A DNA stretch of 39,242 nt, from IMG/VR virus record IMGVR_UViG_3300001737_000092, positions 4,939 to 44,180 of that record. One strand, given 5' to 3'. Each line of letters starts with the position of its first letter. Within the stretch, counting starts at the first letter, position 1. Shown one piece after another: positions 3,406 through 30,100 of this stretch. Made by a program: the position numbers and the translations under genes. The notes below the pieces were generated by a model. That model was given only the letters and a program-made list of their open reading frames with translations. It ran no database searches and was not told the origin of the DNA. The stretch comes from a virus.

Positions 3406-5064
3406 TAAAAATTCTTATATTAGGTGAGAGTGGTTTTGGTAAAACTGCTTCTTTACTTAAAAATGAAAAATTAGGTATTAAAGGTATTGATCCAAAAGAA
3501 ACTTTTTTAATTAGTTGTGTTGCCAAATGGACACCTAATTATAAAGTTACAACACCTGATAATTTAAAAGATGGTAATAGAATCATCACAAGTAATGCAA
3601 AAGTTATTGTACAAGTATTAAAAAACCTATTGAACTCACCATTTAATATTATAGTTATAGATGATTTTAACTATATTATGCAAGATTTTTACATGGCTAA
3701 TGCTATGAAAAATGGTTGGGATACGCCAAAACAAATTGGTTATGATATGGGTTTGATATTTACTGCATTAGATGAATTAGCTAAAACAAAAATTATTATT
3801 TGTTTAGCTCATTCAGAAGATTATAAAGTAAATAATAGTGGTGATATTAGTTATCGTATGAAGACTACAGGTAAGATGGTCATCTTGGGCCATTACTCAT
3901 TTAATTGACTGGAACACCCTTAGAGTCTTACACACTCCCTATAACAGTAATGATTATAGTATAGTAAAAGAGGTAAGAATTGGGCAATCAGCAGCCAAGA
4001 TTCCTTAAAGGAATAAGGTTCACAGACTATCTCCTGTTGTGGGAGAGTACAAATTAAACTAATTACTTAATTTGGAAACAGTGAGTATTTTTTACTATTT
4101 TTATTATAATATTAACTATTAAAGTAAAAATAATGACCAAAATATATAAATTAATAGATCCTGAAACCAATGATATAAAATATATTGGTAAAACAAAAGA
4201 ATCTTTAAAAAAGAGACTTTCAGGACATATTACAAAAGCAAAAAAATCAAGAACATCTCATGTTTCTTGTTGGATATATTCTCTTTTAGAAAAAAATAAA
4301 AAACCATTAATTGAATTAATTGAAGAATGTGAAAATTGGATAGAAAGAGAACAATATTTTATTTCTATATATCCAAATTTATGTAATCATTCTATTGGTG
4401 GTGAATCTGGGACATTAGGCTATAAAATGTCATTAGAACACAAAGAAAAAATATCTAATTCTTTAAAAGGTAAATCTAGAACTGAAATTACAAAGTTAAA
4501 AATTTCTAATTCTCACAAAGGAAAAATACTTAGTGATAGTACAAAAGAGAAAATAAAACAATGTAATATTGGTAAAAAATTGAGTATGGAAACTAGAATT
4601 AAAAAATCTAAGTATCTTATATTACAATTTAGTAGAGAAAATGAACTAATAAAAGAATGGTTTACATTAGGACAAATAGAAGAGGAATTAGGTTATTTAA
4701 AATCTAATATATGGTCTTGTTGTTCTGGTAGATTAAAAACTGCTTATGGTTTTGTTTGGTCATATAAAAATAAAGATATAGTCGAATCTTAATAGAAATA
4801 TTAAGTTATAATGTGTTGAAATAATTACTCAACTTAAAAGCATTATATAATATTTGTCAAGAATATTTGACGCCTGAAGGAAAATTTGATCTAATGTTAT
4901 TTGGTAAATCACAATATAATGAATCTCTTAAAAAAGTAGAGAAATTTTTTGTAACTGAGAATGATGGTCAATATCCATCTAAATCTCAGGGTTTATTTGA
5001 TGATCTTTATATCAAAAATGATATGGGATTAGTAGTAGATGCAGTAAGAAATTATGGTAAATAA
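3402..5064 (+). CDS. Sak4/RecA-like recombination ATPase, split by a group I intron
   Basis: Exons 3402-3880 and 4857-5064 join to 687 bases, giving 228 residues. Walker A is GESGFGKT (residues 8-15) and Walker B is IIVIDD (83-88), followed by the FNYIM segment and an AH.E motif typical of phage Sak4-like single-strand annealing ATPases. Splicing restores the conserved block KTTGKMV-QEYLTPEGKF, which matches the KTIGKM...TPEG block of that family; Val160 is built from GT of exon 1 and T of exon 2. Without splicing the reading frame stops at 3908 after 15 or so intron-coded residues. The start overlaps the helicase stop (ATGA). The likely role is recombination or annealing at the replication fork. 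Confidence 0.8.
3881..4856 (+). ncRNA. Group I self-splicing intron, 976 nt, in the Sak4-like gene
   Basis: P1 is ATGGT at the exon end (3876-3880) paired with GCCAT at 3889-3893, with the required U-G wobble at the splice site. P10 is TCAAG of exon 2 (4857-4861) paired with CTTGG at 3884-3888. The intron ends in G4856. Conserved core elements are visible: P near 3979 (AATTGGGCA), Q near 3986 (AATCAGCAGCC), R at 4018-4029 (GTTCACAGACTA) and S at 4773-4783 (AAGATATAGTC). P7 is GACTAT 4025-4030 with ATAGTC 4778-4783. The endonuclease ORF lies between R and S, that is in the P8 region. Base pairing was checked by hand, not by covariance model. Confidence 0.93.
4133..4792 (+). CDS. Intron-encoded GIY-YIG homing endonuclease
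   Basis: A 219-residue endonuclease. The N-terminal GIY-YIG nuclease shows IYKL at residues 4-7, YIG at 17-19, a conserved Arg in KKRLSGH and the Glu-containing WIEREQYF near residue 80. It is followed by three NUMOD3-type DNA-binding repeats (SLEHKEKISNSLKGK and two more) and an IENR1/NUMOD1-like end (LGQIEEELGYLKSNI). It should cut the intron-less allele of the Sak4-like gene to spread the intron. Its last codons, KNKDIVES, are also the S strand of the ribozyme helix P7, so the same bases serve as coding sequence and catalytic RNA. Confidence 0.92.
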   Translation: MTKIYKLIDPETNDIKYIGKTKESLKKRLSGHITKAKKSRTSHVSCWIYSLLEKNKKPLIELIEECENWIEREQYFISIYPNLCNHSIGGESGTLGYKMSLEHKEKISNSLKGKSRTEITKLKISNSHKGKILSDSTKEKIKQCNIGKKLSMETRIKKSKYLILQFSRENELIKEWFTLGQIEEELGYLKSNIWSCCSGRLKTAYGFVWSYKNKDIVES

Positions 5065-6088: not shown

Positions 6089-7057
6089 ATGTACTATCAG
6101 CCCGATGTTTATATACCAAATACTATAGATGGTATATATTCTTATTATTCAGAAGAAGATATATTTAAACTTGTATTTGGAGAATATCCAAATTATGATA
6201 AAAAATATGTTAGTCCTTTTAGAAACGATAATTATCCAAATTGTTATTTTATAAAAAAAGATAACCATATTTATTTTGTAGATTGGGCAGATAGTACAAT
6301 AGGTGCTGTTGGTTCTATAGTAAAAATGTATGATTTAAGTTTAAAAGATGCTATCTCTTATATTAAAAATAATATAGCTATAAGAGATATTAATTTAAAA
6401 CCAAAGATTATACAAAATTTTAATAAACCTATAAAAACACCAACTCTTATAATACCAAAAAAAAGAGATTGGGAAAAAAGAGACAGTATTTATTGGACAG
6501 AAAGATATGGTATTACTATAGCTAATTTAGAAGAAGATAAAACTATTCCAATTTCCTTTTATTCATGGAGAAAAAATAATATATGGAAACATACATCTTT
6601 GAAAGAAATTGGTTATGCTATATCTACTAATGATAATAAATATAAAATTTACAGACCATTAGATTCTAAAAATTCAAAATGGTTATCAAATATACCTAAA
6701 AATTATATTTTAGGTAAATATACAAATAATGGAAATTTGATAATCACAAAGAGTTATAAAGATTATAGAGTAATTTATAATCTCATAGAAGATAATGTTA
6801 TATGGTTACAAAGTGAAGGTTCAATACCAGATAATATAAATAATTTTGTTGAAAACTATGATAACATAACAATATTTTATGATAATGATAATGCTGGTAT
6901 AAATGCTAGTAATAAGTTAGCTAAAATAATTACCAAACCAACAAATTTAATTTATACTCCTGAAAAACACCTAAAAGATATTTCGGAAATGTACTGTTTT
7001 AAGGGTAGACAGTTTACAGAAAAATGGTTAAAAAATACCCTTAATTTAAAAAAATAA
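6089..7057 (+). CDS. DnaG-like primase with TOPRIM domain
   Basis: A 322-residue primase. The N-terminal part has YVSPFRNDNYPNCYF and FVDWAD, a degenerate version of the DnaG N-terminal fold in which zinc-binding cysteines are mostly lost. The C-terminal TOPRIM domain shows ILIITKSYKD near residue 217 and the metal-binding YDNDNAG near 262, then KDISEMY. It makes RNA primers for lagging-strand synthesis, partnered with the DnaB-like helicase. The absence of clear CxxC pairs suggests reduced template recognition compared with bacterial DnaG. Confidence 0.83.
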   Translation: MYYQPDVYIPNTIDGIYSYYSEEDIFKLVFGEYPNYDKKYVSPFRNDNYPNCYFIKKDNHIYFVDWADSTIGAVGSIVKMYDLSLKDAISYIKNNIAIRDINLKPKIIQNFNKPIKTPTLIIPKKRDWEKRDSIYWTERYGITIANLEEDKTIPISFYSWRKNNIWKHTSLKEIGYAISTNDNKYKIYRPLDSKNSKWLSNIPKNYILGKYTNNGNLIITKSYKDYRVIYNLIEDNVIWLQSEGSIPDNINNFVENYDNITIFYDNDNAGINASNKLAKIITKPTNLIYTPEKHLKDISEMYCFKGRQFTEKWLKNTLNLKK

Positions 7058-7087: not shown

Positions 7088-7681
7088 ATGAAAGTTACAA
7101 TTTATAGTACAGCTGGTATCAACGGTAATGTTGTTGATCTTCTTTCTACTGTTACAACTTATGGTCAGCTGAAAGCTGCTGTTGGTAATAGTTATCCTTG
7201 GTCAACTTCTAATGTTGCTGATGAATCTGAGAAAGAATATATTTCAGATTCTGATACTATTCCTTCAGAAGATTTCTGTCTTTTTGTTTATCCTAGACAG
7301 ACAAAATCTGGTGCAACAATGAGTAAGCTTCCTTATAATGCAGTTAAGCGTACTATTAACAACATTATTGATGATAATGAAGGAGCAGAAGATTTTTTCG
7401 GTAATTTTGAAATGCTCAGTACCCTTGAACTCAATGAGATGCTTACCAAGTGGTATGATTATGAAGAAAAGATGAAATCAGAAGAAGATTTTCTTGATAA
7501 CACAATCAGTCTTGAAGATATTTGTAAGTTTATTGATTATAAATATATAGTATACACTTCTGATGGAATGGATAGAGTAACTGTTGAGACTATTGTTAAC
7601 TCAATTGTTAATCATTTTGCAATGCCTGATCTTTGTCAAATTAAATACAAAGAAATTGCAGAAAAGAAGGGTTGGGTTTAA
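7088..7681 (+). CDS. Ubiquitin-like protein of a phage conjugation cassette (PRTRC-C-like)
   Basis: A 197-residue protein. Residues 1-75 look like a beta-grasp: MKVTIYS strand, TTYGQLKAAVG helix, and a last strand FCLFVYPRQTKSG. This pattern resembles the Ub-like PRTRC protein C/Prok_Ub families. About 120 helical residues follow and the native C terminus is KKGWV, not GG, so if it is conjugated it may need processing; Gly75 lies exactly after the last strand, where a ubiquitin tail would be. It is followed by a strong terminator and then by E2-, JAMM- and E1-like genes, which is the main support for the call. Codon choice has more C and G than its neighbours (CTTGAACTC, GCTTACCAAG), which may point to high expression. 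Confidence 0.62.
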   Translation: MKVTIYSTAGINGNVVDLLSTVTTYGQLKAAVGNSYPWSTSNVADESEKEYISDSDTIPSEDFCLFVYPRQTKSGATMSKLPYNAVKRTINNIIDDNEGAEDFFGNFEMLSTLELNEMLTKWYDYEEKMKSEEDFLDNTISLEDICKFIDYKYIVYTSDGMDRVTVETIVNSIVNHFAMPDLCQIKYKEIAEKKGWV

Positions 7682-7703
7682 TTACTTAACTTTTAATTAA
7701 TTT

Positions 7704-7741
7704 AAAGGGAATAGACAATATATTTGTTTATTCCCTTTTTT
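7704..7741 (+). terminator. Intrinsic terminator after the Ub-like gene
   Basis: AAAGGGAATAGACAA (7704-7718) pairs with TTGTTTATTCCCTTT (7724-7738) over 15 bp with a single G-U, a 5-nt loop TATAT, and a run of T immediately after. It lies 23 bases past the Ub-like stop and just before the E2-like gene, so transcripts can end with the Ub-like gene and read-through would give the enzymes at lower level. Confidence 0.88.
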
Positions 7742-7754
7742 TATTTATTGTAAC

Positions 7755-8963
7755 ATGGAAAGAATAATATATAACAATGATTTTGATTTTAAAGAATTAA
7801 ATCTTAAACATAATTTTAAACTTTCTGATACATCAATTGATATAATGAATATCATATTGATTGCATTAAGAAAAACATATCCAGATGAATTTGAAATTAT
7901 ACCTGAAATGTCTTTTAAAACAGGTAAATTTTTTATTATAATTCATTTTCCAACAATTAATATTACAAATATGAGATATGAAAAACATGTTATTCATGAC
8001 ATATTTGTAAAATTAACAATTTATAAAGATAAATCTGTTAACAGATTGCAATTATGTAATATGAGTGGAATGAGAACTTCATATACTAAAAGAGAAATTA
8101 TTGCAGGTTATTCTCATAGTCATTTAAGTGGTGCAGTTCGTAATTCATTTGGTCCTTGGAGAGAATTTGTAGAAACAGGTAGATATTATAGTTTATCAGA
8201 AATAAATAATGTATTAAGATTTCAACAATATGAAACTTTATTTTCAGATTTTTGTCTTGGTAACGGTGGTATTAATAAAATAATCAATGTCATAAATAGC
8301 CAAAATGAATTTCAAAAAAACATCAATAATTGGATACTTTTCTTTAGATCTATAAAAGCATATTTAGAATACGAAAGTATTGAAGGTGGACCCTATAGAA
8401 GAATAGGAGATATTGGTAAAAATAATGGTAGAACAGGTGATATATTAAGTAATACTAATATTTATTCCAATATTTATATGGAAAGAACAATATATTCTCA
8501 TTCACAAGATATTCTAAATATTCTAAATGATTTAGTTAGAGACAAACAAATAGAATTATTTTTAAATGAAAATAATAAAATAGAATTTAATTATAATTCT
8601 AATTTAGAACCACTTTTTTATGACAAACTTAAATCTTGTTTTTCTGATACTTTTTATATGTTAAGACAAGGAACAGAACCTAATTTTTGTTATGTATATG
8701 CTAAAGATGTTTTAAAATATTCTTTTTCTGAAGAAAAAATTAAATATTTAGAAGAATATTATTTTCCATTTAGAGATAAAACTTTTCAAGCCAATTTAAT
8801 TGATAAAAATGTAGCATTTGATGAAAGAAAAACAGTTGAAGAGGTATTTCATCCTTCAACAATAAAATTAATTTTAAAATATTATACAAATGTCTGTAAT
8901 ATCAAAAAAAACAGTATTACCAATAGTAAACAGCTTTGCTCGCCCATTGCTTCTGATTTCTGA
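7755..8963 (+). CDS. E2-like conjugating protein (PRTRC-B-like)
   Basis: A 402-residue protein. The stretch FFIIIHFPTINITN, then HDIFVKLTIY, GMRTSYT, GYSHSHLS (His121, His123) and FSDFCLGNG (Cys167) reproduces the layout of prokaryotic E2-like domains: strands, a His-containing turn, then the candidate catalytic Cys followed by LG. I recall the same blocks in PRTRC system protein B/Prok-E2_D proteins. The C-terminal 230 residues are helical and unassigned. It would accept an activated Ub-like protein from the E1-like enzyme at 10191-10985. The end overlaps the JAMM gene by 74 bases in another frame, which is long for this genome. Confidence 0.65.
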   Translation: MERIIYNNDFDFKELNLKHNFKLSDTSIDIMNIILIALRKTYPDEFEIIPEMSFKTGKFFIIIHFPTINITNMRYEKHVIHDIFVKLTIYKDKSVNRLQLCNMSGMRTSYTKREIIAGYSHSHLSGAVRNSFGPWREFVETGRYYSLSEINNVLRFQQYETLFSDFCLGNGGINKIINVINSQNEFQKNINNWILFFRSIKAYLEYESIEGGPYRRIGDIGKNNGRTGDILSNTNIYSNIYMERTIYSHSQDILNILNDLVRDKQIELFLNENNKIEFNYNSNLEPLFYDKLKSCFSDTFYMLRQGTEPNFCYVYAKDVLKYSFSEEKIKYLEEYYFPFRDKTFQANLIDKNVAFDERKTVEEVFHPSTIKLILKYYTNVCNIKKNSITNSKQLCSPIASDF

Positions 8964-10194
8964 TGAATTTTATAAACAAGCAGATATACTTTGTAAAAAT
9001 ATCTCCAATGTAGAATGGAGTGGTATTGTTATTTATAAAATAACTGGTTCTATACTTTCATTATTTAATGCAAGTAAAGCTAAAGTACCCAAAGAAAGTA
9101 TATTCATTGAAGCACTGGACATTATTCCTATGGATAAAGGAACAGCAGGTTATACTGATTATAAATTTGGTCCCAAAGTTCAAAAGTATATGAAAAACCT
9201 TGCTGAAGAAAGAGGTATTGATCCTAAAACATTATATAGTTCAAGACTTGGTCATGTACATTCACATGTAAATATGGCTACCGGATTTAGTGGTACAGAT
9301 ATGGATGAACTAGATGATAATGTTCGTAATCATAATGGATATCTCTCTATTATTACTAATAATAGAAAAGAATATAATGCAAAATTTGTTGTAGCAGCAT
9401 CTTTAAAATCAAAAAATGAAGGTGTATTTACTGATATTGATGGTCAAACAGCTACTTATACAAAAGAATATCCAGAAAAAATGTCAATGGTAGTATTTGA
9501 ACCAGAGATTATTTTTGAAGACAAAGAAATTTTCTTTAATAAAACCTTTCTGGAATCTATGGAAAGTATTAAAGCACCTAAAGTTCCAAAAATCTTAGTT
9601 TCACCACATAATTATCATCAATATCATAATAGATATTCTGAGCTTGATGATTTATTTGCAGAAATAGATAGTAAAGATTATAGTTCACCAAAATTAGATG
9701 AAATTGTTAGACAATTTGATCATAATAATGGTAGAAGTCAAGTTTTAGTATCAGGGAATGTCAATACAAATAATACAAATAATACTAAAAATGTTAAAGA
9801 AATTGAAAATGTATTTATGAATTTTATTACTATTGCTTTAGTAGAAGCACATTATTCTGAAGAAATAAAACATAAAGCTGAATTATATTCTTTAACAAGA
9901 ATCTTACATGATTTGACAAAATCTTATGTTACAGAGGATGATAAAATAATCTTCAAAACAAATTTAGAAGATACAATTCCAGAAGCATATACTAGTATTC
10001 TTGGTACTTTTGATACTATGAAAGATCTTGAATCATATGTAAATACATTACGTGAAACAATGTCATTCTTTAGTACAAGTATGTATGTAAAAAATTATAC
10101 TGAAATATGTAAACTTATCCAGTCTACTTGTAACCATATCATTAATGATATGAAAAAGAAAATGAAATCAACTAAAAAATTAATAACAACATGA
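8890..10194 (+). CDS. JAMM/MPN (JAB) metalloprotease
   Basis: A 434-residue protein with a complete JAMM zinc-binding motif, HxHx7SxxD: His124, His126, Ser134 and Asp137 in HSHVNMATGFSGTD, with the upstream catalytic Glu42 in VEWSGIV. In ubiquitin-like systems this family trims the Ub-like precursor or removes it from targets. The C-terminal 200 residues are helical (possible partner-binding region), with an Asn/Thr-rich linker NTNNTNNTKN near residue 295. Upstream of ATG 8890 the frame closes with TAA within 15 bases, so the start is near-certain and the overlap with the E2-like gene is real in this sequence. Its stop overlaps the E1 start as ATGA. Confidence 0.88.
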   Translation: MSVISKKTVLPIVNSFARPLLLISDEFYKQADILCKNISNVEWSGIVIYKITGSILSLFNASKAKVPKESIFIEALDIIPMDKGTAGYTDYKFGPKVQKYMKNLAEERGIDPKTLYSSRLGHVHSHVNMATGFSGTDMDELDDNVRNHNGYLSIITNNRKEYNAKFVVAASLKSKNEGVFTDIDGQTATYTKEYPEKMSMVVFEPEIIFEDKEIFFNKTFLESMESIKAPKVPKILVSPHNYHQYHNRYSELDDLFAEIDSKDYSSPKLDEIVRQFDHNNGRSQVLVSGNVNTNNTNNTKNVKEIENVFMNFITIALVEAHYSEEIKHKAELYSLTRILHDLTKSYVTEDDKIIFKTNLEDTIPEAYTSILGTFDTMKDLESYVNTLRETMSFFSTSMYVKNYTEICKLIQSTCNHIINDMKKKMKSTKKLITT

Positions 10195-10985
10195 GTGATC
10201 TATCTGATTCTGTAGATACAAAAATTGTTCCAAATAAATATACAAGATTTAAAGATGCATCTTGGTTTGAAACAATTCAAAATCAAGAATTATTTATTGG
10301 TGGAGCTGGTGGGATTTCTTCATGGTTGGCACTAGCGATTGCTAGTGCTGGTTGTGAAAATATAACAATTGTAGATTTTGATACAGTAGAAGAAGTAAAT
10401 CTTGCTGGTCAATTTTTTAAAAAATCTCAAATCAATACCAGTAAAGTAAGAGCTGTATATGATAATATTATAGATTTTTGTGATTTGTCTATTAATATGT
10501 CAAATTCAAAAATAGAAAAAGATACAGTATTACCATTTACTCACATTCTTACTGGTTTTGATAAAATGTTACCAAGAGAATTAACATTTAAACAATGGTG
10601 TAAAACTGTAGATACTATATGTCTTACAGAAAAAGAAAAAAGAAATTGTATTTATATGGATGGAAGATTGACAGCCGAGCAAATTCAAATATTTACCATT
10701 ATTGGAACAGATGAAATTGCAAAAGAAGAATATCTTACTAATCATATATTTTCAGATAATACAATAGAAGACGCACCATGTACATTTAAACAGACAAGAT
10801 TTTTAGCAATGAAAATTGCTGGTATAATGACTGAAATATATACCAATTATCTTGCAAATATTTCAACAGAGGTTTATGGACCTAAACAAGTTCCATTTTT
10901 CTTTCAAACATATACACCTCTAATGAATACTGTTAAAATTAATAAACTAATTAAAAATGACGACAGTAGTACAAGAACAACCTAA
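10191..10985 (+). CDS. ThiF/E1-like adenylating enzyme
   Basis: A 264-residue single-domain E1-like protein. The nucleotide-binding loop GGAGGIS lies at residues 37-43, acidic DFD at 62-64, VNLAGQ (Asn70, Gln74, like the NLxRQ motif of ThiF) and Lys85 follow. A candidate catalytic Cys is in DAPCTFKQ near residue 197. Such enzymes adenylate the C terminus of a Ub-like protein and pass it on to a Cys. The CxxC zinc pairs of ThiF/MoeB are not visible. Overlaps of 4 bases with the JAMM gene and 29 bases with the next gene place it in one transcription unit with the E2-like gene. Confidence 0.87.
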   Translation: MSDLSDSVDTKIVPNKYTRFKDASWFETIQNQELFIGGAGGISSWLALAIASAGCENITIVDFDTVEEVNLAGQFFKKSQINTSKVRAVYDNIIDFCDLSINMSNSKIEKDTVLPFTHILTGFDKMLPRELTFKQWCKTVDTICLTEKEKRNCIYMDGRLTAEQIQIFTIIGTDEIAKEEYLTNHIFSDNTIEDAPCTFKQTRFLAMKIAGIMTEIYTNYLANISTEVYGPKQVPFFFQTYTPLMNTVKINKLIKNDDSSTRTT

Positions 10986-11760
10986 TTCTAGAGTTGCTAT
11001 CAATGTAATACCAAATTTTGTAAATCCAGATACATATTCATCTGATCGTACTATTCAATTTTCATCTATTTATGAAAATAATCAAAAATATGTTCTAAAT
11101 ATTAAAGATGCAGATGAAAAAACATTAGGTATAGTAATGAATAATATATTACCTTCTAAATATATAATTTCATTAAAAAATAGTAAATTAATTCCTTATT
11201 TTGCATGGCAATGTTTTAATCATATAAATTTTTCAAATATATCTATAGATGGAAATATGATATCATTACCTACAAATTATATTAATTCACGTCATATGCC
11301 GTTGTCTTCACTTAAATATGTATTATCTGGACAAAGTGGTAGATATAGAACTATTAATATGATAACCCCAACATTTTATCTAAATATTAATGGTGTAAGA
11401 CATCGTATTCGTGCAAGAGAACATTTTATGTATAGTTCTGAATATCCTAATATATTAGAAAATAATGTAGTTGATGATATAGAACCAATTATAATGATTG
11501 CTTTATGTTCAAGTAGAGATCAAAATAAAATGGAACCTTTTAATGTAAATAAAAGCATACTTGTTGTAAATATAAATCAAGAATATGCACCATTAATGAA
11601 ACCTATTAATAAATATATAAAGCTTTATAAAGAAAATGGTATTAAAAATATATTATATACAGATAATCCTAATTATTATATTTTTGATCAAAATGTAGAA
11701 AAAATAGATCTCATGAGAAAAAGTGACAAAGAAGAATATTTACTACAATTTTTACCATGA
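10957..11760 (+). CDS. Unknown fifth protein of the ubiquitin-like cassette
   Basis: A 267-residue protein with no motif I recognise. It looks mixed alpha/beta, has few charged clusters, and contains HRIRAREHFM near residue 150 and an acidic DDIEPI segment after it. It overlaps the E1-like gene by 29 bases and the nuclease gene by 4 (ATGA), so it is translated as part of the cassette. Options are a target, an adaptor that selects targets, or a structural partner. It could also belong functionally to the following nuclease. No function is assigned. Confidence 0.6.
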   Translation: MTTVVQEQPNSRVAINVIPNFVNPDTYSSDRTIQFSSIYENNQKYVLNIKDADEKTLGIVMNNILPSKYIISLKNSKLIPYFAWQCFNHINFSNISIDGNMISLPTNYINSRHMPLSSLKYVLSGQSGRYRTINMITPTFYLNINGVRHRIRAREHFMYSSEYPNILENNVVDDIEPIIMIALCSSRDQNKMEPFNVNKSILVVNINQEYAPLMKPINKYIKLYKENGIKNILYTDNPNYYIFDQNVEKIDLMRKSDKEEYLLQFLP

Positions 11761-12152
11761 ATACTAGAAAAGTTTCAAATAACAGAGTTAGGGGACATAA
11801 TTTTGAAAGAGCTATAGCAAAATTATTTAGAACTTTAGGTTTTGACAAAACTAAAACATCAAGACAAGCTTCTAGATTGCTTGATAATAGCAAAGTTGAT
11901 TTGTGGGGATTACCATTTAATATTCAATGTAAAGATGGTATTCAAAAAGGTTTATCTTATAGCAAAGTTCTCTCAGAAATGAGAGAACTTCTTGCTATTA
12001 ATTATCCAGAAACTGATCCTCAAATAACATATCCAAAAATTATAATACATAAGAAACTTCCATTTGGTAAAAAAAGAGTTGAAGAAGATACTCTTGTTGT
12101 TACTACTTTAGAAGATTTTATTAAAATTATAACTAGTCAATATGGAAATTAA
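11757..12152 (+). CDS. PD-(D/E)XK nuclease, Holliday-junction-resolvase type
   Basis: A 131-residue nuclease. The fold signature is RGHNFERAIAK (Glu17 in the first helix), a TSRQASR segment, Asp48 in KVDLWGLPF, and QCK (Gln57, Lys59) as the (D/E/Q)xK pair. This is the arrangement of archaeal-type and phage Holliday junction resolvases. It probably resolves recombination or replication branches before packaging. The start overlaps the cassette gene stop as ATGA and its own end overlaps the next gene by 11 bases. Confidence 0.75.
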   Translation: MNTRKVSNNRVRGHNFERAIAKLFRTLGFDKTKTSRQASRLLDNSKVDLWGLPFNIQCKDGIQKGLSYSKVLSEMRELLAINYPETDPQITYPKIIIHKKLPFGKKRVEEDTLVVTTLEDFIKIITSQYGN

Positions 12153-14836: not shown

Positions 14837-17170
14837 ATGAATAAAGAACTAATTGATTATTTTAATGGTGATGAATTGGCTGCTAAAGTGTGGATAAATA
14901 AGTATAAATGGGGAGATGAACGTCTCCCTGATGATTCTTATTTGAGATGTGCTAATGAATTTTGGAGAATTGAAGAAAAATATATTAGAGAAGAAAAAGA
15001 TTTTAAATTAATATATGGTAAAGATATTACTCCAATAACAAAAGAATGGATTCTTGATTCTTTTAAAAACAAAAAGATATGTTTAGCGGGTTCTGTATTT
15101 GCAAATCTTGGTAATAAAAACTATATCGGTTCATTATCAAATTGTTTTGTAATGGGTGAACCACATGATAGTTATTCTGGTATTATGGCTAAAGATGAAC
15201 AGTTAGTACAAGTAATGAAAAGAAGAGGTGGTGCTGGTTTATCTTTATCTAGTCTTAGACCCAAGAATACTAAAGTTAACAATGCCGCTAAAACCTCTAC
15301 AGGTGCTGTATCATTTGCTAATAGATATTCTAATAGTACAAATGAAGTTGCACAATCAGGAAGAAGAGGTGCCTTAATATTGACAATGGAAATGAGACAT
15401 CCAGATAGTCTTGAATTTATTAGTAGTAAACAAGATTTGACTAAATTAACTGGTGCTAATATATCAGTTGGTATAAGAAACGATTTTATGAAATCACTTG
15501 ATACTACTAATGAATATGATTTATGTTATCCTGTTGATGAAGTAAGTAGTGATACTTATTATAAAACTATTAAATCAAGTGAATATTGGGATAAACTTGT
15601 TGAGTGTGCTTGGAAAACAGGTGAACCTGGTATCTTATTTTTAGATCATCATTGGAATAATTCTCCTGATTCAATGTATCCTAAACATAGAGGTACAGCA
15701 ACTAATCCATGTGGTGAAATATTTATGTCAGAATATGATAGTTGTAGATTAATTCATCTTAATATTTTTGCATTTATAGTCAATCCATTTACATCAGAAG
15801 CATATTTTGATGATAAAGAATTCTATGAATATGCATATAAAATGCAAAGATTAGCAGATGATTTAATTGATCTTGAAATTGAAGCCATAAATAGAATTAT
15901 TAAACATATTGCTGATAATTATAATACTATCAATGATAGAGAATTAATTATGTGGCAAAGAATTAAAGCTAAAGCTTTAGGTGGAAGAAGAACAGGTAGT
16001 GGAAGTCTTGGATGGGCTGATGCTATAGCTGCTCTTGGTCATGAATATGGTAGCGAGGAATCTCTTAAAATAATTGATAATATTGCTAAATTAAAAGATG
16101 AAGCTGAATCAGATTCAACTATGAATATGGGATTTTCTAGAGAACCTTTTTCAGATTATAATTCTAATGTAGATGAAATGCTACGAAGAAATATTAGTTG
16201 GAATACTGTTGCTCCAACAGGTACTACAGCTATTATAGCACAAGTATCAGCAGGAATTGAACCGATTTTTGCATTATCTTATACTAGAAATGTTAAAGTA
16301 GAAAATGATAAAGATTATGATTTTGAAGATATTGTTGGTAATAAATTCAAAAAATATATTGTATATCATCCTACAGTAAAAACTTGGTTAGAATTAAATC
16401 CAGATAAAACAATTGAAGATTCTCCTTGGTATAACTGTACTGCGGATAAAATTGATTGGAAAACTAGAGTTGACATTCAAGCTATTATACAAAAATATAC
16501 AACTCATAGCATAAGTTCTACTATAAATTTACCTAAAAATACAACTAAACAAACTATATCTGACATTTATAAATATGCTTGGATAAAACAACTTAAAGGT
16601 TTAACTGTATATGTAGATGGTAGTAGAAGTGGTATTTTAGTTACAGACAATAATGCAAATAAAGAAAATGGTAATATTGGATATAACCTTAATGCGCCTA
16701 AAAGACCAAAAGAACTTGTAGCACATTTCTATCCTATTACGGTAAAAGGTAATAAATTTGGAGTTATTGTTGGTTTACTTGAAGGGAAACCTTATGAAAT
16801 ATTTTGTATGCCAGAACCACTTAGAGTAAAAGAATGTACTGGTACTATTACAAAAATATCAAAAGGTTCTTATACTTTTAAATCTAATAATATTGAAATT
16901 AGAAATCTTCATATTTCTGGTGAATTAGAAAGAGCAATTACAATTTTAACTTCTCAATTATTGAGACACGGAGTAGCAATTAAACATATTATTGCTGCTA
17001 TTGGAAAAGTTGGAATAAGTGTTGTTGATTTTAGTTCAGCAATTAAAAGGGTTTTAACTAAATATTTACCTAAAGATATAAAAATAGAATGTCCTGAATG
17101 TGGTCAACAAATGGTTTTTGAAAATGGATGTGCACATTGTAATTCATGTGGTTATTCTCGTTGTGAATAA
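14837..17170 (+). CDS. nrdJ: Class II (B12-dependent) ribonucleotide reductase
   Basis: A 777-residue NrdJ-type enzyme that reduces ribonucleotides with adenosylcobalamin and needs no oxygen or partner radical subunit. Visible are the first redox Cys (SNCFV near 105), RRGGAGLSLSSLRP, the active-site loop NPCGEI (about 289-294), NTVAPTGTTA and GIEPIFALSYTR, a TSCPD-like region near 640-740, and a C-terminal zinc ribbon with CPECG, CAHC and SCGYSRC (about 750-776). That C-terminal zinc ribbon is typical of the class II NrdJ type. No NrdB-like or glycyl-radical partner follows. Cofactor use suits an anaerobic, B12-rich gut niche. It lies between ThyX and dUTPase. Confidence 0.9.
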   Translation: MNKELIDYFNGDELAAKVWINKYKWGDERLPDDSYLRCANEFWRIEEKYIREEKDFKLIYGKDITPITKEWILDSFKNKKICLAGSVFANLGNKNYIGSLSNCFVMGEPHDSYSGIMAKDEQLVQVMKRRGGAGLSLSSLRPKNTKVNNAAKTSTGAVSFANRYSNSTNEVAQSGRRGALILTMEMRHPDSLEFISSKQDLTKLTGANISVGIRNDFMKSLDTTNEYDLCYPVDEVSSDTYYKTIKSSEYWDKLVECAWKTGEPGILFLDHHWNNSPDSMYPKHRGTATNPCGEIFMSEYDSCRLIHLNIFAFIVNPFTSEAYFDDKEFYEYAYKMQRLADDLIDLEIEAINRIIKHIADNYNTINDRELIMWQRIKAKALGGRRTGSGSLGWADAIAALGHEYGSEESLKIIDNIAKLKDEAESDSTMNMGFSREPFSDYNSNVDEMLRRNISWNTVAPTGTTAIIAQVSAGIEPIFALSYTRNVKVENDKDYDFEDIVGNKFKKYIVYHPTVKTWLELNPDKTIEDSPWYNCTADKIDWKTRVDIQAIIQKYTTHSISSTINLPKNTTKQTISDIYKYAWIKQLKGLTVYVDGSRSGILVTDNNANKENGNIGYNLNAPKRPKELVAHFYPITVKGNKFGVIVGLLEGKPYEIFCMPEPLRVKECTGTITKISKGSYTFKSNNIEIRNLHISGELERAITILTSQLLRHGVAIKHIIAAIGKVGISVVDFSSAIKRVLTKYLPKDIKIECPECGQQMVFENGCAHCNSCGYSRCE

Positions 17171-19801: not shown

Positions 19802-22800
19802 TTACTCTTCATTTTTTAGTCTCTTTAATTCTTTATCTCCAGAAGTATTAGAAGGGAATATTTTATTCAACATTTTAGTTAATTCTTTTGGAGTTATATC
19901 TGGATAACGTTCTCTTATTATTCGACTAGCTATTGATCGGTTTTGCATTCTCCTTTTTCTAAGTATATTTTCTGAAGGCATTTTAAAACGTTCTATAGTT
20001 GGTGTACCCAAAGTTTGATTTGGATTATATTCTCTATGTGTTTCACCATAAATACCAAATCCACCATGTGTAAAATCTTTAAATGGAGTAGGCAACACAA
20101 CTTTATTAAAACTTCTAACTACTCTATGTTGACCTCTATAAGGACCATTTAAATAAATATCATCACCATTTATAAATTTACCTATATCACCAATTAATGT
20201 ACCTACATCATCTAATGTTCTTTTTACAGCACCTTCCATTACTAATTCATAAAATTCTTTGGGATTAGCATATAAAGATAAATCATTTATTACAGCTATT
20301 AATCTATTTGAAAGAAGATTATAAATTCTTCTCCTAGCACTATCTTTTTCATCATCAGGATCCCACAGTAAACCTTTAACAACCATTATTAATAATAATG
20401 CATAACTTTGAATAGCAATTTTTTGCATTATCTGAGTAAGATTTTGAGCATCGTTTTCTGTAAAACCCAAATTTTGATATTGTTCAATAGCATCTTGTTT
20501 TAAAATCATTTTACCAGAAATTAGGTTTGCTGGTAAACCAATCATTTTTTGTAGATATACTTTACCATGAACAACTAATTCTTGCAAAACTTTTAAATTT
20601 TGTATTTCACTGTTAGCATCTAAACTTTGTATACCAAATGACATTATACCACCTGCAATAGCTCCACCTATAGCACCTGGTAAAGCAGCTATACTTCCAC
20701 CAGTACTAAAACCAATTAATGCTCCTGTAATAGGTGTGGCAGAACGTAAAATACCTTTTTCATGCTTAATACCACCTTCAAGATTCATATGCTCTTCACC
20801 CCAATATTTATATATTGTCTCAGGTAACCAGCTTTTAAAAACCATAAATGCTCTACCACCACTACTTCTTCTATATAAAAGATTACCTAATGCACCATAA
20901 TCACCATGTACTTTTAAAGCAGATATAATTTTACCTTTTAGTAAGTCAAATTCTTTTCCTTTAGTTTTTTCCCAATTATTAATATTTTCATCAGTTCTAA
21001 ATTCTTCTTTTAACATACCATTTTCATCAAGTGCATCCCAAATATTAGAAGTAGTAATACTATCTTTGCCAACAATTTCATTGTCAATTAAGAAAGCACC
21101 CATTAATGGGGTTTGTATTGCTTCTTCAACAACTCTTCTTAATGCATAAGGTTTTATATATTTACCTAATTTAGTAAGAGAAAAATCTGTTGATAAACCA
21201 ATTTCTTGATATTCATTAGTTGCATCTTGAAAAACATCTAATCTATTCAAAAGAATTTTAAATTTTTTATGATTTTTAGGATTTCGATATAATGCTTCTG
21301 CTCTATAATATGATTCATGTTTAAAATATTTACCTGATGCAGCTAAAATTTCATTTGCAATTTTACCTTGTATATAGTTATTTGCTTCACTTTTAGGACT
21401 TAATCCTAATATTTTCAATCTAATTAATTCTATAAGTGTTTTTAAAATCTGATTAGCACTTATATTTCTACCAATATTTTTCAATTCTTCTTTTAAAAAA
21501 TTTTTATCTTCTTTAGAAACAGTATTAGATTTTAAAAGAGTTTCAATCTCATCAATTCTTTTTTTATCCTCTTTTGAATAAACTTTTGTTTGTAATACTT
21601 TACCTTTTTCTTTTGTATTATATAAGCCAAGAACTTTATTATTAAATTGATCTTCAAAAGCTTCTACAGCTTTAGTTCTTTCTTTACCATCAAGCGTTTT
21701 AACAGTTTTGTGTAAATCTTTTAAATGATTTAACATAGGTAATACTTCAGATCTACCATTATATTCAGCTGTTAATTTAGAAAAATAACCTAATGTTTTA
21801 GGTAAATTAAAAGAACTCATTTCAACAACTTCATTAATGACATAGTTTTTTATAATTCTGCCAACTGGTATATCTGAACTTTCTGAGCTAACAAACATTA
21901 CTCTTTTTATTTCATTAATATCATCTTTTACATTAAGCATAAATGCTAATTTTTCTAATACAATACCTGTAATATCTTCCACAGATAATGAAGTATCTTC
22001 ATCTATTGTTGTTATTGATAGAAAATTATTTATTTCAGAATTATCTTCATTAGATGAAGAAAAAAATTCTTTTTTAATATCATCAACAATTTCCATTGCT
22101 TTGATTTTAAACTTGCTCCTTATTAAATTTTTATTAGCATTAATAAAAGAATTATTTGCACTATAATCTGTTAAACCAGTTTTTTTACTTAAAGTAGATG
22201 TTTGTTGGTCACCAATTGCATATGTACTAATGCTTTCTTTTATATCAGAAACTAATTTGTTTCCCACACCCCATATACCAAGATCAACCATTGTTTCAGC
22301 ATAATTTTTATGATGCATTGGTAAAGAGTTAGCAATAAAATTATCATATACATTTTTAGGTAAACTATCACTCATATATTTAAATATCTTTTCAGCAGTA
22401 TTTCTGAAATTATATAATGAATCATGTTTTTCTATAATATCAAAATCTTTATCATAATAATTAGTATTTTCACCTTTACTATTTAATTTTTTAGGTATTA
22501 GATGATTGTAAGTAAAATTACCATAATACCCAATACTACTTGTTTTATTAAAATGGTTAATTGCAATTAATGGTGAATTTATAAAATTCCACATTTCTAA
22601 ATTAGATTTGTTTTTGTCAGATATATCATCAAAAATATTTATTCCTTCTTCATCTTTATATCTTTCTATTTTAGTATAATATTGAATTTTATATTCTTTT
22701 AACATTTCAATTTGTTGAGCAACTAATTCATCAAAATGTTTATCTGTTATATTAAAATCTTTAGCAGTAAAATTTTCTTTACTATCTATAACAATAAGTT

Positions 22801-24184
22801 TATTTAATTCTGTATCTGAATTAATAAAATCTCTTATCGCAGCTACCTTTGTAAAATCAAAAATATTAGTATTATTTTTATACCAACCAAGTAATCCTTC
22901 TTTATAAGTTTTAATTAAATCAGATTTATTAGATTTATCATTTTTATATGCTTTTCTGATTAATCCATTAAAATGTTTTTGAATATGATTTAATTCTTGA
23001 TTATAATGATGAGAATATCGTTGTATTAATTGAGTTGTAAAACCACCTGTTTCATTTTTTTGATAAAACAATTTATAAGAAGCACCTTTAATTACTCCAC
23101 CTAAACCATATGATTCTCCTAATTCAATAAGTGTTTTTTCAACAGCAGGTACTTGAGCCATTAATTCAAGATTTTGTTGTTGTTGTAATACAAGATGTTC
23201 ATTAATACTATTTCTTAAAAGATGTATAACTATTTCAGGAATTTTATTTTTATCAACTCTATTTGGACTTAAAGTATAAGCACTAAATAAATCAGTATCT
23301 GCAATTGCTTCAGTCAAACTTTCTATAGTAAATCCTTCAAAATCTTTTAAATTTTTAATAATATCTAATTCATTAATAATATTAATAACACTTTTATCAA
23401 GACTTAATTTAGCTCTAATATTAGCTGTTTTAGCTTCACTTACCCATCCTTCTAATTGTTTCAAAGAAATAGACGTACTTCCAGCATTATCTTTTAAAAT
23501 ATCATTTAGTTGTTCATGAGTAAACAAAGGATTATTCTGAAGATCTAAAATTCTCATATAAAATCTACTTATATCAAGTGCTTCTAACAAATTATCGTAA
23601 TTAAGATTACCAATAATTGTAGTATCAAGTAATGATTGCATTTTATCAAGATCTTTTTTGACATAATCTATTAAATCAATAGATTCTCTCACTTTTGTAA
23701 GATTATCAATCTCTTGTTCCATACTTAATTTATCAACACCATTACCATAAATTTCTTCAGCTAATTTTTGATGAACAATTTGTAATTTACCTTTTTCTAT
23801 AGGATCACTTGTTAATTTTATTTTTTTAGTTAAAACATTGAGTCTATTATGATAATATTTCAAAATATTTTTTCTAAATTCTATATAATCTTTTGGATAA
23901 TATTTATCTTCTCCAATAAAATCTTCTTCATTATTAATTACAACTTCAGGTTCATTAGGAATATCTTCTAGTGGATTATTTTCAAAAATAGATGAAGCAA
24001 ATTCTTTAGGTTTATCTATTTCAATATTACTAACAGTTATATCTTCTATTGATGGCCATTTATTAGTATTATTAGCATCTTGCCAATCACCAATTCTAGC
24101 AGCTATAATTATAGGATTAAGATTTAATTGTTTAGCTAATTCTTGTACATCAGCATGATTTATATTTATACATTTATTTTTCAT
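19802..24184 (-). CDS. Giant virion-type protein (1460 residues) with hydrophobic C-terminal segments
   Basis: A large, mostly helical protein, last gene of the minus-strand block. The first 1100 residues are charged helices without recognised enzyme motifs. Around residues 1145-1185 there is a Gly/Ala-rich hydrophobic stretch (ITGALIGFSTGG, LPGAIGGAIAGGIMSFG) and near 1250-1272 a second one (IQSYALLLIMVVKGLLW); both could enter membranes. The end (FKDFTHGGFGIYGETHREY, then a basic tail RKRRMQNRS) resembles the C termini of giant crAss-like cargo proteins as I recall them. It may be ejected with the genome and help form a channel. The ATG overlaps the upstream stop by one base (TAATG). Function is inferred from position and size. 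Confidence 0.6.
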   Translation of the reverse strand: MKNKCININHADVQELAKQLNLNPIIIAARIGDWQDANNTNKWPSIEDITVSNIEIDKPKEFASSIFENNPLEDIPNEPEVVINNEEDFIGEDKYYPKDYIEFRKNILKYYHNRLNVLTKKIKLTSDPIEKGKLQIVHQKLAEEIYGNGVDKLSMEQEIDNLTKVRESIDLIDYVKKDLDKMQSLLDTTIIGNLNYDNLLEALDISRFYMRILDLQNNPLFTHEQLNDILKDNAGSTSISLKQLEGWVSEAKTANIRAKLSLDKSVINIINELDIIKNLKDFEGFTIESLTEAIADTDLFSAYTLSPNRVDKNKIPEIVIHLLRNSINEHLVLQQQQNLELMAQVPAVEKTLIELGESYGLGGVIKGASYKLFYQKNETGGFTTQLIQRYSHHYNQELNHIQKHFNGLIRKAYKNDKSNKSDLIKTYKEGLLGWYKNNTNIFDFTKVAAIRDFINSDTELNKLIVIDSKENFTAKDFNITDKHFDELVAQQIEMLKEYKIQYYTKIERYKDEEGINIFDDISDKNKSNLEMWNFINSPLIAINHFNKTSSIGYYGNFTYNHLIPKKLNSKGENTNYYDKDFDIIEKHDSLYNFRNTAEKIFKYMSDSLPKNVYDNFIANSLPMHHKNYAETMVDLGIWGVGNKLVSDIKESISTYAIGDQQTSTLSKKTGLTDYSANNSFINANKNLIRSKFKIKAMEIVDDIKKEFFSSSNEDNSEINNFLSITTIDEDTSLSVEDITGIVLEKLAFMLNVKDDINEIKRVMFVSSESSDIPVGRIIKNYVINEVVEMSSFNLPKTLGYFSKLTAEYNGRSEVLPMLNHLKDLHKTVKTLDGKERTKAVEAFEDQFNNKVLGLYNTKEKGKVLQTKVYSKEDKKRIDEIETLLKSNTVSKEDKNFLKEELKNIGRNISANQILKTLIELIRLKILGLSPKSEANNYIQGKIANEILAASGKYFKHESYYRAEALYRNPKNHKKFKILLNRLDVFQDATNEYQEIGLSTDFSLTKLGKYIKPYALRRVVEEAIQTPLMGAFLIDNEIVGKDSITTSNIWDALDENGMLKEEFRTDENINNWEKTKGKEFDLLKGKIISALKVHGDYGALGNLLYRRSSGGRAFMVFKSWLPETIYKYWGEEHMNLEGGIKHEKGILRSATPITGALIGFSTGGSIAALPGAIGGAIAGGIMSFGIQSLDANSEIQNLKVLQELVVHGKVYLQKMIGLPANLISGKMILKQDAIEQYQNLGFTENDAQNLTQIMQKIAIQSYALLLIMVVKGLLWDPDDEKDSARRRIYNLLSNRLIAVINDLSLYANPKEFYELVMEGAVKRTLDDVGTLIGDIGKFINGDDIYLNGPYRGQHRVVRSFNKVVLPTPFKDFTHGGFGIYGETHREYNPNQTLGTPTIERFKMPSENILRKRRMQNRSIASRIIRERYPDITPKELTKMLNKIFPSNTSGDKELKRLKNEE

Positions 24185-24537
24185 TAATGACTTAAGAATT
24201 TGAGTTTATAACAAGTAGTATTTATTAATTCAAGTACATCATCTACAATTGCTTGTAAATATCCATCTTTATATGTGAGTCTATGTTCAGTATATTCTTC
24301 AGATAAATTTTGAAGATATTTGAGTGGATCTAAACCTTCACTAAAAGATATACTATATCCTTTTAATAAACCATATTTACCTTGATATGATTCAATAAAT
24401 CTATCAGCTAGATCTTCTACACCTTCATAAAATTCTTGTAAAATTATATGAATAGAATGTTTTGATGTTTGTAAATGTGCTACATGCATATCAGTTCTTG
24501 CTGTTAATAAAGATGATACAAATTCTATTGTTTTCAT
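24184..24537 (-). CDS. DUF5856-like ferritin-fold small protein
   Basis: A 117-residue helical protein. The block HVAHLQTSKHSIHIIL, EFYEGVEDLADRFIESYQGKYG matches DUF5856, a Dps/ferritin-like phage family I recall. His and Glu residues suitable for metal binding are present, but I cannot show that a ferroxidase site is complete. It is the only small gene between giant virion proteins, one base after the 882-residue gene and coupled to the 1460-residue gene. Its placement suggests a virion or host-takeover role. Confidence 0.65.
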   Translation of the reverse strand: MKTIEFVSSLLTARTDMHVAHLQTSKHSIHIILQEFYEGVEDLADRFIESYQGKYGLLKGYSISFSEGLDPLKYLQNLSEEYTEHRLTYKDGYLQAIVDDVLELINTTCYKLKFLSH

Positions 24538-24538
24538 G

Positions 24539-27187: not shown

Positions 27188-30100
27188 TATTAGTTTCTAA
27201 ATTAGATTCTTCAACTTTAATTCTAGGTTTATCTCCTGTATGATAAATAGTAAATTTAGCTCCTATTTCTTGTAAATAATCTATAAATTGAGAATCTACA
27301 TTTGGCATATCACCTACTATAAATTCAGCCCCATTTATGTTATTATGATAAATATCTGTTTTTGTATTTTCACTTAATGGTTTGCCTCTTAATTCAGAAT
27401 TTCTAGCTAACATTACTATCTTAGCGTCTTCATTGCCTGATGTTCTATATGCTTCTATAGCTCCATACTCTGTAGGAGAACCATGTTTAATACCTATTTC
27501 TTTAAAAGAAGTATCAGTAGAACTTTTAGGAATAAAATTATGTAAAGAAGAATTTATATTTAATGATATTGGTGTAATAGATTCACCAATAAACGCATCA
27601 GCAACAGCTCTCATTGCTTTATCTTTACTATCACCTTGTGGAGTACCTTTACCCTTGTTTTCAAATCCTCCTTTATAACCTTGAAAACCTGATTTAGGTT
27701 TATTATTTTGCAATAGTTTATATTCTATTTGCCAAGCTTCATTTAATTTAGGTCTAACTTTAGAATTAAAATATTCAGTAGACCAACCTTCTAATTTGCT
27801 CCATTGTTCAACATTTTTTCCACTACCTACTAATTTATGCAAAGGTTTAGTAACTTCGACTAATATTTTTTCTCCAGTAGCACTTTCCCATTCTATAATA
27901 TCTCCTTCTTTTAATTTCTTCCAATAATCTATATGATTATCTGATTCATATCTTGTTGTAGCGGTTCTCTCACCATTTTTAATCGCTTCAAAAGTAGTAG
28001 TAGAAATTATATCATTTCTTTTATTATTACCATAAGAAAAAGTCATTTTACCTTTAGCAGAAATAACTTTATTTTTAATTTCCTTTTTAGTTGTAGCAGA
28101 CGAACTATCTTCCTTTACTTCTTTTACAGGTTCAATAGTAACTAATTCTTTTTCAAATTTAATCATTGACAATACAACATTGATAGATTCATCAGTAATA
28201 TTATCGCCAACATAATTAGGATCGTCTTTAAAGAAATTTTTAATTGCTTTTATAAATTTTTCCCAAAGTGAAAGTTGACTAGTATACGGTATTTTACGAA
28301 GTTGATTTTGTAAATCAAAATCACTCATTAATTCTGAATAAAATTCATGAATATCTTTGAATACATTTTCAGATCTAGATTCTTTTTTAACTTTTAAATT
28401 CTTTTTAGCTACTTTGTATATATTAATTAATTCTCTAATATGAAGAGGTGTATCTTCAGTTATTTCAAGATTAGTATAATTCTCTAATTCTCTAGAAAGA
28501 AAGGCATGCATCATTTCATGCAAATATATTCTGGCACCATCAATGCCATTTATATTAATATACTGATTATTTAAGACAATAGTGTTATTTAAAGCAAAAT
28601 ATTTTCCTTCTACTATTTCTCCATTTACTGTAACATTATCAGCTATATCTAATATAATACTATTTAATTTATTTTTATCAGAAACAGAAATAGTTCGAAT
28701 GACTTCAGCTATAGTTTTTATAGTAGGACTTATATCAGGATGATCTATTATACTAGTTAAAATACTATGATGATCTTTGGTACTAAATGCAAGAGGTTCA
28801 TTCTTTATTGCACCTTCTTTTTGTTTTTCTTGAATAGTAGGTTCTTCAGAAGATCTTTTTACAGGTTGTTCACCAAAAAGTGTTTCTACAAAAGGATCCA
28901 CTTTATTAGTATGAATATTAACAATAGATCTAACTATACCTTTTACAGTCATATCATATTCAGTCATATTTGAATGACCAAGTGTAGGTATTCTAAAATA
29001 CTCATTTTCTTTTATAGGATTTTTAATAAAAACATAATATGAATTATTTTTATTCATACTAATCATTTCAGGAATCATATCATCTTCTGTGTTTTTTACT
29101 AACCATTCTTTATTTACTTTTATAGACAAAAGATCTTCTATAACAATTATTTTATTATCATCTTTGACTAAATCAGAAATACTAACTTGTTTTAAATCTT
29201 GAGGATTATGTTGTGCTTGTTGAATAGCAAAATTACTCAGATTTATTTTATCATTAATAGCAAAAATTTTTTCATTGTTGTCTAATAACGCAGTATGTAT
29301 TGCTCTCATTGTACTAGCAAAAGATGTTTCTTCTAATAATACAAAAGGTATATATTTAACAAATTGATTTGCTTCTTGTATACCACCTTCTAAATAAGCA
29401 TATCTTATCAAGTCATTTAATAATTTATGAGTATCATATTCTTTACCATTATAAGAAGGTAATTTAACAGGATTAACAACACTACTTTGAATACCATTTT
29501 CATCTGTTATAGTTTTAACACCTAACAAATTAGTAAAAGCCATATGTAATACTTGTTCATCAAGAGAATCATGTTGTGAATTATTATATTTAATAATAGA
29601 AGGTTCACCGTTATTCTTAATATCAAAAGTTATATTAGCAAACAAAGGATTTTTTTTGATAATATCAAGTTCTGTAGTAGACCAAAGATCTTTCAAATAA
29701 GATGCTAATGATTGATTTTCATCGCTATCTATAAACAATTCTTTTCTTTGTGTTTGCAAAGTTTCATTTTTATTATATATACCAGAATATTTATTAGCAT
29801 AAAAGAATCTTTTGATATTAGCAAATACTTTTTGTTTTTGTTCAACAGTTAAATTTCTACCACTTCTTGAAAGAAAAATAGTTTCATTCATTCTGTGTTT
29901 TATTAAATCGGTATCATAAGGAAAATAATCTCCCCACAATCTAAGACTTGTTTGTAAACCATATGTATTATAAATTGATGGTAAAGTATTGTTTACTAAA
30001 ACATATGTTCTATTTTTTACAATATATATACCTTTATTAGTACCATTTATTTTATCAATTTTTTCTTGTAAATCAATACTGTCAAATAAACTTTTTCCTA

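Follow-up and report, generated by a model that had tools for sequence, protein, structure and literature searches.

The window analysed here is a 39,242-nucleotide (39 kb) stretch of a 49-kb IMG/VR virus record (IMGVR_UViG_3300001737_000092), whose helicase, E1 and JAB proteins have their nearest relatives in Flavobacterium psychrophilum phages (Fpv1, FpV4 group) and their next nearest in Steigviridae crAss-like phages. Five adjacent forward genes at positions 7088-11760 encode a ubiquitin-like protein (Ubl) precursor, an E2-like protein, a JAMM/JAB protease, a ThiF/E1-like enzyme and a fifth protein without family match. In a preliminary description made from the sequence alone, this cassette was taken for a full conjugation and removal system lying between primase and resolvase in the replication region of a crAss-like phage. 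The open reading frames (ORFs) given there (7088-7681, 7755-8963, 8890-10194, 10191-10985 and 10957-11760) are correct, and so is the placement, the borders being a Toprim primase and a RusA-like resolvase. The features of the locus are as follows, in window coordinates.

6089..7057, + strand: Toprim DNA primase, left border of the slot (Pfam Toprim_2, 2e-05; PHROG 12622 DNA primase, 2.3e-31)
7088..7681, + strand: Ubl precursor, 197 residues, beta-grasp in residues 1-75 and then a helical tail (AlphaFold2 mean predicted local distance difference test score, pLDDT, 80)
7310..7312, + strand: Ubl Gly75 codon, proposed processing/conjugation site (...QTKSG-cut-ATMSK...)
7313..7678, + strand: helical tail of the Ubl precursor
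7755..8963, + strand: E2-like protein with UBC topology and a long C-terminal extension, 402 residues
8115..8123, + strand: H121-S122-H123 motif of the E2-like protein
8253..8255, + strand: Cys167 of the E2-like protein, proposed catalytic cysteine (C-x-G)
8890..10194, + strand: JAMM/JAB metalloprotease, proposed Ubl processing/deconjugating enzyme, 434 residues
9259..9300, + strand: JAMM motif H124-x-H126-x7-S134-x2-D137 (Glu42 codon at 9013-9015)
10191..10985, + strand: E1-like (ThiF/UBA) Ubl-activating enzyme, 264 residues
10302..10322, + strand: E1 nucleotide-binding loop G38-A-G40-G41-I-S-S44
10779..10781, + strand: E1 Cys197 (C-T-x-K-Q-T), proposed catalytic cysteine
10957..11760, + strand: fifth gene, 267 residues, a fast-diverging accessory that is often present
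11757..12152, + strand: RusA-like Holliday-junction resolvase, right border in this phage (PHROG 244, 2.9e-09)

Relatives of the cassette had to be collected with alignment queries, since a scan of viral contigs with a single protein query returned just two near-identical contigs. The alignment-based scan gave 211 stretches with an E1 relative, 80 of which were kept, and tblastn matched 74 annotated phage records; blastn against phages found no match because the sequences are too divergent at the DNA level. The resulting conservation sample consists of the window plus 93 loci; 80 of these come from viral contigs, two being near-identical to the window, and 12-13 are regions of annotated phages. 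A Ubl gene was recovered 89 times, the E2-like protein 90 times, JAB 91 times and E1 93 times, and in the gaps inspected the missing genes mostly corresponded to contig ends. A survey of gene order in related phages had been called for in the preliminary description, and across the ~90 loci, crAss001, DAC15 and Flavobacterium phages included, the order and orientation of Ubl, E2, JAB and E1 were constant. The crAss001 equivalents are gp79-gp75, annotated as hypothetical, hypothetical, metalloprotease domain, thiamine biosynthesis ThiF and hypothetical. The E2 and JAB ORFs of the window overlap by 74 nucleotides in different frames (8890-8963), and a similar overlap is found in crAss001 and other relatives.

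Profile searches, also proposed at the outset, matched E1 and JAB, whereas the Ubl and the E2-like protein had no significant match; searches of these two and of the fifth gene singly in Pfam, NCBIfam and PADLOC were uninformative. The sole recurrent Pfam match of the JAB protein was Prok-JAB, found in 51 of 56 members with a best E-value of 1.1e-06 (0.063 for the window protein alone). This profile and the E...HxHx7SxxD motif place it among the JAB/JAMM metalloproteases. H124 and H126 are kept in 88/91 orthologues, S134 and D137 in 89/91 and Glu42 in 87/91, the last being an addition to the catalytic residues named earlier, all of which are present and conserved well beyond chance. The E1-like enzyme matched Pfam ThiF (7.9e-15) and, among PDB profiles, UBA5 (3.9e-12), as well as MccB, MoeB, UBA6, UBA3, Cap2 and BubCD. 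G38, G40, G41, S44, D62 and D64 are invariant (93/93); the GGAGGIS motif pointed out previously corresponds to G37-G-A-G-G-I-S43, and D62 and D64 are the aspartates of the DFD motif. A catalytic-type Cys197, in the context C-[ST]-x-K-Q-T, is present in 92/93. With its GxGGxxS loop, its D, N, Q, K motif and its ThiF profile the protein is a member of the E1/ThiF superfamily.

The product of the first gene had been described as a beta-grasp protein. The fold was indeed found, but the Ubl domain is just the first ~75 residues. The AlphaFold model exhibits a beta-grasp-like element order in residues 1-70 (most blocks with pLDDT 85-96), low confidence at residues 73-77, and then helices. When the model was compared with the PDB using Foldseek, the top matches were mostly ubiquitin, which was also the best, plus SUMO, NEDD8 and archaeal ubiquitin, for most of them with probabilities of 0.9-1.0, template modelling (TM, target) scores of ~0.6-0.7 and root-mean-square deviations of ~2.6-3 Å over ~77 residues. 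The E-value was ~0.01 because just 75 of the 197 residues match. The ubiquitin fold and the conserved glycine at the end of the domain assign it to the ubiquitin-like beta-grasp modifiers. Gly75 is the sole invariant residue (89/89), preceded by Ser74 in 87/89 and Lys/Arg73 in 84/89.

The part that follows Gly75 ranges from 1 to 252 residues among orthologues, and from 24 to 252 in most. The Ubl stops one residue past the glycine in L062, L072/L073, L074 and L089, two residues past it in cr106_1 (L011; L076 is the same phage) and three in L045, and these loci derive from different data sets. In L062, L072 and L073 a new small ORF begins on an overlapping TAATG right after the short Ubl, and in cr106_1 (L011 3725-4928), where the Ubl ends KSGKF, an HNH endonuclease gene lies between the Ubl and a free tail ORF. 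A profile of the tail matched free proteins of ~80-125 residues adjoining the primase in rIIAB-bearing, cassette-less sister phages (E-values 2.4e-20 to 3.6e-13), and these proteins align to it from their own start Met. In the fused forms Met is enriched within six residues after the glycine (24/73 versus 9% expected, p=2e-8, uncorrected for shared ancestry). Two very divergent cassettes missed by the Ubl profile, L231 and L234, have a candidate ORF in the position of the Ubl, in which ...SG falls at a comparable point, and L231 retains the E1 and E2 cysteines. In rII-type loci the Ubl profile also gave matches; these were considered as lone Ubls, a reading rejected because only the tail domain is matched. 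Since Gly75 is invariant, the ORF ends 1-3 residues later in several phages and the tail is free in sister phages, the most economical explanation is that the Ubl is fused to a small phage protein and that Ser-Gly75 is very probably the cut site, which would expose the conjugating glycine.

The E2-like protein was modeled as a helix, a four-strand meander, a loop with HSH and Cys167, and two helices, which is the element order of the UBC fold. Ser122, His123, Cys167, Gly169 and Glu207 are invariant (90/90), and H121 is found in 73/90. The E2s Cdc34 and Atg10 appeared within the top 50 Foldseek folds (E-values 0.1-1.3), a list that also holds cystatins, and the significant structural relatives of the model were other phage proteins, including cr128_1 and one crAss-like virus. 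Structure prediction thus gave a ubiquitin fold for the Ubl, and for the E2-like protein a fitting topology but no PDB fold match at E<=0.001. The E2 is the weakest of the cassette assignments, because neither a significant fold match nor a sequence match accompanies the topology and the invariant Cys167; the modeled fold is suggestive, and we regard it as quite likely that the protein is an E2. A lack of both the beta-grasp and the E2 fold, or loss of Cys167 and the E1 loop in relatives, had been named beforehand as grounds for abandoning the idea. The beta-grasp fold and an E2-type topology were found, and Cys167 and the loop are kept in relatives. A PDB profile match of the E2-like protein to BamA (0.003) was judged a chance match. 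As a separate observation, dN/dS (the ratio of non-synonymous to synonymous substitution rates) of the window gene against the near-identical phages L016 and L017 was 0.7-1.2, compared with 0.25-0.48 for E1/JAB, the high value resting on ~35 changes scattered along the protein.

Of the 94 sequences searched, 71 contained the fifth gene, versus 89-93 for the other four. Its product had no match in Pfam, NCBIfam, PADLOC or PHROG-type family searches, and a PDB profile match to prophage ps3 protein 3g8w (0.001) was considered a chance match. A scan of a genome collection, run with a single peptide pattern that distant relatives could escape, gave an E1 relative on just two bacterial-genome contigs, and for that reason the cassette family looks essentially viral. 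A bacterial defence island was rejected on this count and because the neighbours are phage replication genes.

The slot occupied by the cassette was surveyed from its borders, i.e. centred on the primase or on UDG, which is the right border in most relatives in place of the RusA-like resolvase of this phage. This choice is unbiased toward the cassette and gave 59 non-duplicate loci with enough downstream sequence (L114-L272). E2, JAB and E1 were present all together in 24/59 and just one or two of them in 0/59. The alternatives were rIIA/rIIB (11/59), a set of ATP-grasp, COOH-NH2 ligase, glutamine amidotransferase and amidoligase genes (6/59), or none of the three modules (18/59), and two modules never shared one slot (0/59). 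If the loci were independent, which they are not, the conjugation and rII sets would have a chance of ~0.0015 of never overlapping. Complete genomes repeat the pattern in the same primase-UDG slot, with the amidoligase set in cr108_1 and Cellulophaga phi14:2 and rIIA/rIIB in cr116_1. One module per slot is likewise the pattern at L111 4638-13611, L112 15972-23371 and L113 4139-11438.

Among known systems, PRTRC of plasmids and integrative and conjugative elements (type 6d of Iyer 2006) has the same parts in the same order, Ubl(C)-[F]-E2(B)-JAB(A)-E1(ThiF), and its cassettes are likewise often found among replication/partition genes. Profile comparison gave a probability of 98.5% for E1 with PRTRC_ThiF and 94% for JAB with PRTRC_A, HSH...FFSGTD being aligned with HSH...YFSPTD, and a C-x-G cysteine motif is shared; in the alignment of the E2-like protein with PRTRC_B, which falls short of significance, the C-x-G motifs of both face each other. 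On the other hand, E1 scores 14.6 bits against a cut-off of 144.75 for PRTRC_ThiF (TIGR03736), PRTRC_B (TIGR03737) gave no match in the record, nor in control genomes, and neither PRTRC_B nor PRTRC_C membership was found. In PRTRC the Ubl is usually short and free, in the phages usually a long fusion precursor. No ParB-family protein was named among the family matches of the neighbours, although no search was aimed at ParB. With the alignments of Ubl and E2 not above chance and the curated cut-offs far off, membership in PRTRC was not accepted. The relation to PRTRC and Bil suggested in the preliminary description therefore stands as regards PRTRC gene order and the E1/JAB profiles, but not as membership in either.

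Bil (BilABCD) and Bub also combine Ubl, E1, E2 and JAB, and the JAB of Bil, BilC, processes a Ubl precursor, exposing Gly (reviewed in PMC11354881). The phage cassette differs in being viral-borne rather than a defence operon, in its single Ubl domain, and in an E1 that lacks the architecture reported for BilD, two domains plus a Cys domain. No protein specific to Bil, Bub or type II CBASS was found above cut-off with PADLOC and NCBIfam, the generic E1-E2 models of PADLOC matching on E1 alone. Type II CBASS (Cap2/Cap3) shares E1/E2-type conjugation, JAB and a single C-terminal Gly, but here E1 and E2 are separate proteins and a cGAS-like enzyme was not found. Lambda TAPI/TAPK (Ubl plus JAB/NlpC) has a phage Ubl, a conserved Gly and then a C-terminal domain, and a cut at the Gly by phage JAB was predicted by Iyer et al. 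2006 (PMC1779556); these are tail genes, however, whereas the present cassette lies in the replication region with E1 and E2. The cassette was accordingly filed as a viral variant among prokaryotic Ubl conjugation systems, outside PRTRC, Bil and Bub. No description of it was found in the open-access papers searched; preprints and most subscription papers were outside that scope, so prior notice is possible.

The proposed full conjugation and removal set is supported by the homology of E1 and JAB, the ubiquitin fold of the first product, the E2-type element order around an invariant Cys and the all-or-none co-occurrence. Our reading, with a probability of roughly 0.72, is that the five genes form a phage-borne machine for Ubl conjugation and deconjugation acting in the infected cell, of which we infer the cleavage, thioester relay and conjugation steps. 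The modifier would be produced as an inactive fusion (beta-grasp-KSG75-tail), which the JAB protease would cut after Gly75 into a Ubl ending ...Lys-Ser-Gly and a small helical tail protein. Eukaryotic ubiquitin is made as ubiquitin-ribosomal-protein fusions that are then cut, and the proposed step parallels this release. E1 would adenylate Gly75 and probably bind it to Cys197 through a thioester; the E2-like protein would then take the Ubl onto Cys167 and attach it to target proteins, steered by its own C-terminal extension and perhaps by the fifth protein. JAB could also strip the Ubl from targets.

Several results count against this reading. No PDB fold matched the E2-like protein at E<=0.001 (best E2, E=0.11), a Pfam E2 match was absent in 63 members, and comparison with PRTRC_B by hhalign gave no match (P=0.07); the Ubl was not alignable with PRTRC_C (hhalign P 0.2); E1 has one domain only and lacks a separate Cys domain like that of BilD; and the modifier uses a single Gly, not Gly-Gly, as Atg8-type Ubls also do (PMC10097602). 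The missing E2 matches, the cystatins in the Foldseek list and the place of MccB among the best E1 matches would suit an E2-like protein that is some other alpha/beta-meander enzyme, with E1 handing the Ubl directly to targets or only modifying the Ubl tail or a peptide in an MccB-like manner. We find this unlikely in view of the alpha-beta4-[HSH...C]-alpha-alpha order, the invariant Cys and the PRTRC-like gene order.

The invariant Cys/His of the same protein would also fit sulfur chemistry. E1 might then make a Ubl thiocarboxylate in the style of ThiS/MoaD/CysO for thiolation of nucleotides, tRNA or cofactors, with JAB releasing the carrier and the 7755 product as sulfur acceptor. ThiF and MoeB equivalogs are indeed among the E1 matches, and bacterial JAB-E1-Ubl sets without E2 are tied to sulfur metabolism (PMC1779556). 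This is rather improbable, however, given that a protein with E2 topology and an invariant Cys always accompanies E1 and JAB, that E1 retains the C-T-x-K-Q-T cysteine, and that the family matches of the cassette neighbours include no rhodanese, SirA or sulfur-metabolism gene. Alternatively, the phage proteins might act as decoys that mimic or disturb host Ubl immunity (CBASS Cap2/Cap3, Bil, Bub), for example with JAB stripping host tags and E1, E2 and Ubl competing. In favour of this are the use of one slot by the cassette and by rIIAB, which is viewed as counter-defence (PMC7824862), and the similar role proposed for de-SAMPylases on Borg elements (PMC12660748), but with the catalytic residues of all four parts conserved and E1, E2 and JAB always together, pointing to a self-contained pathway, we give it little chance.

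As to the role of such a conjugation machine, replication, defence and virion proteins had been suggested as its targets. Because sister phages carry rIIAB or amidoligases in the same slot, a replication role is less supported than host takeover or counter-defence, which we put forward tentatively, the evidence being circumstantial, as not far short of an even chance. For rIIA orthologues, the literature speaks of a counter-defence system that is poorly understood (PMC7824862). In the text of the crAss001 virion atlas, gp45, gp46, gp47, gp49 and gp50 are given as cargo proteins and gp76 and gp79 are not mentioned (PMC10172136), consistent with an intracellular role.

Elsewhere in the window, a group I intron-type endonuclease gene (4133-4792) follows a Sak4-like gene that matches part of its profile, and no Rfam intron was found. 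A ribonucleotide reductase of the B12-dependent (class II) type is encoded at 14837-17170 (NrdJ_Z, 397.4 bits, slightly below cut-off). The minus strand at 19802-39222 holds very large ORFs of 1460, 882, 2698 and 1227 residues, two of which were tested and gave weak matches to known phages; they are possibly the crAss-type RNA polymerase and cargo proteins.

Bacterial ubiquitin-like conjugation is known chiefly as anti-phage defence. If the present reading is true, a conserved full Ubl pathway in abundant gut phages reverses this defence-centred picture. The lytic lineage of Steigviridae crAss-like phages and their Flavobacterium-phage relatives might then run a complete Ubl pathway, with a modifier freed from a phage-protein fusion and swappable with rIIAB or amidoligases in a takeover/counter-defence slot, as offensive tagging directed at bacteria, a view we hold possible but somewhat doubtful. 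Cultured models are on offer in crAss001 (gp75-79), DAC15 and Flavobacterium phage Fpv1, and the fusion junction leads to precise predictions of a single cleavage site and a single remnant (...KSG) that proteomics could search for. The shared slot also aligns three unrelated modules, Ubl tagging, amidoligase and rIIAB, and would make the long-standing question of rIIAB function newly testable.

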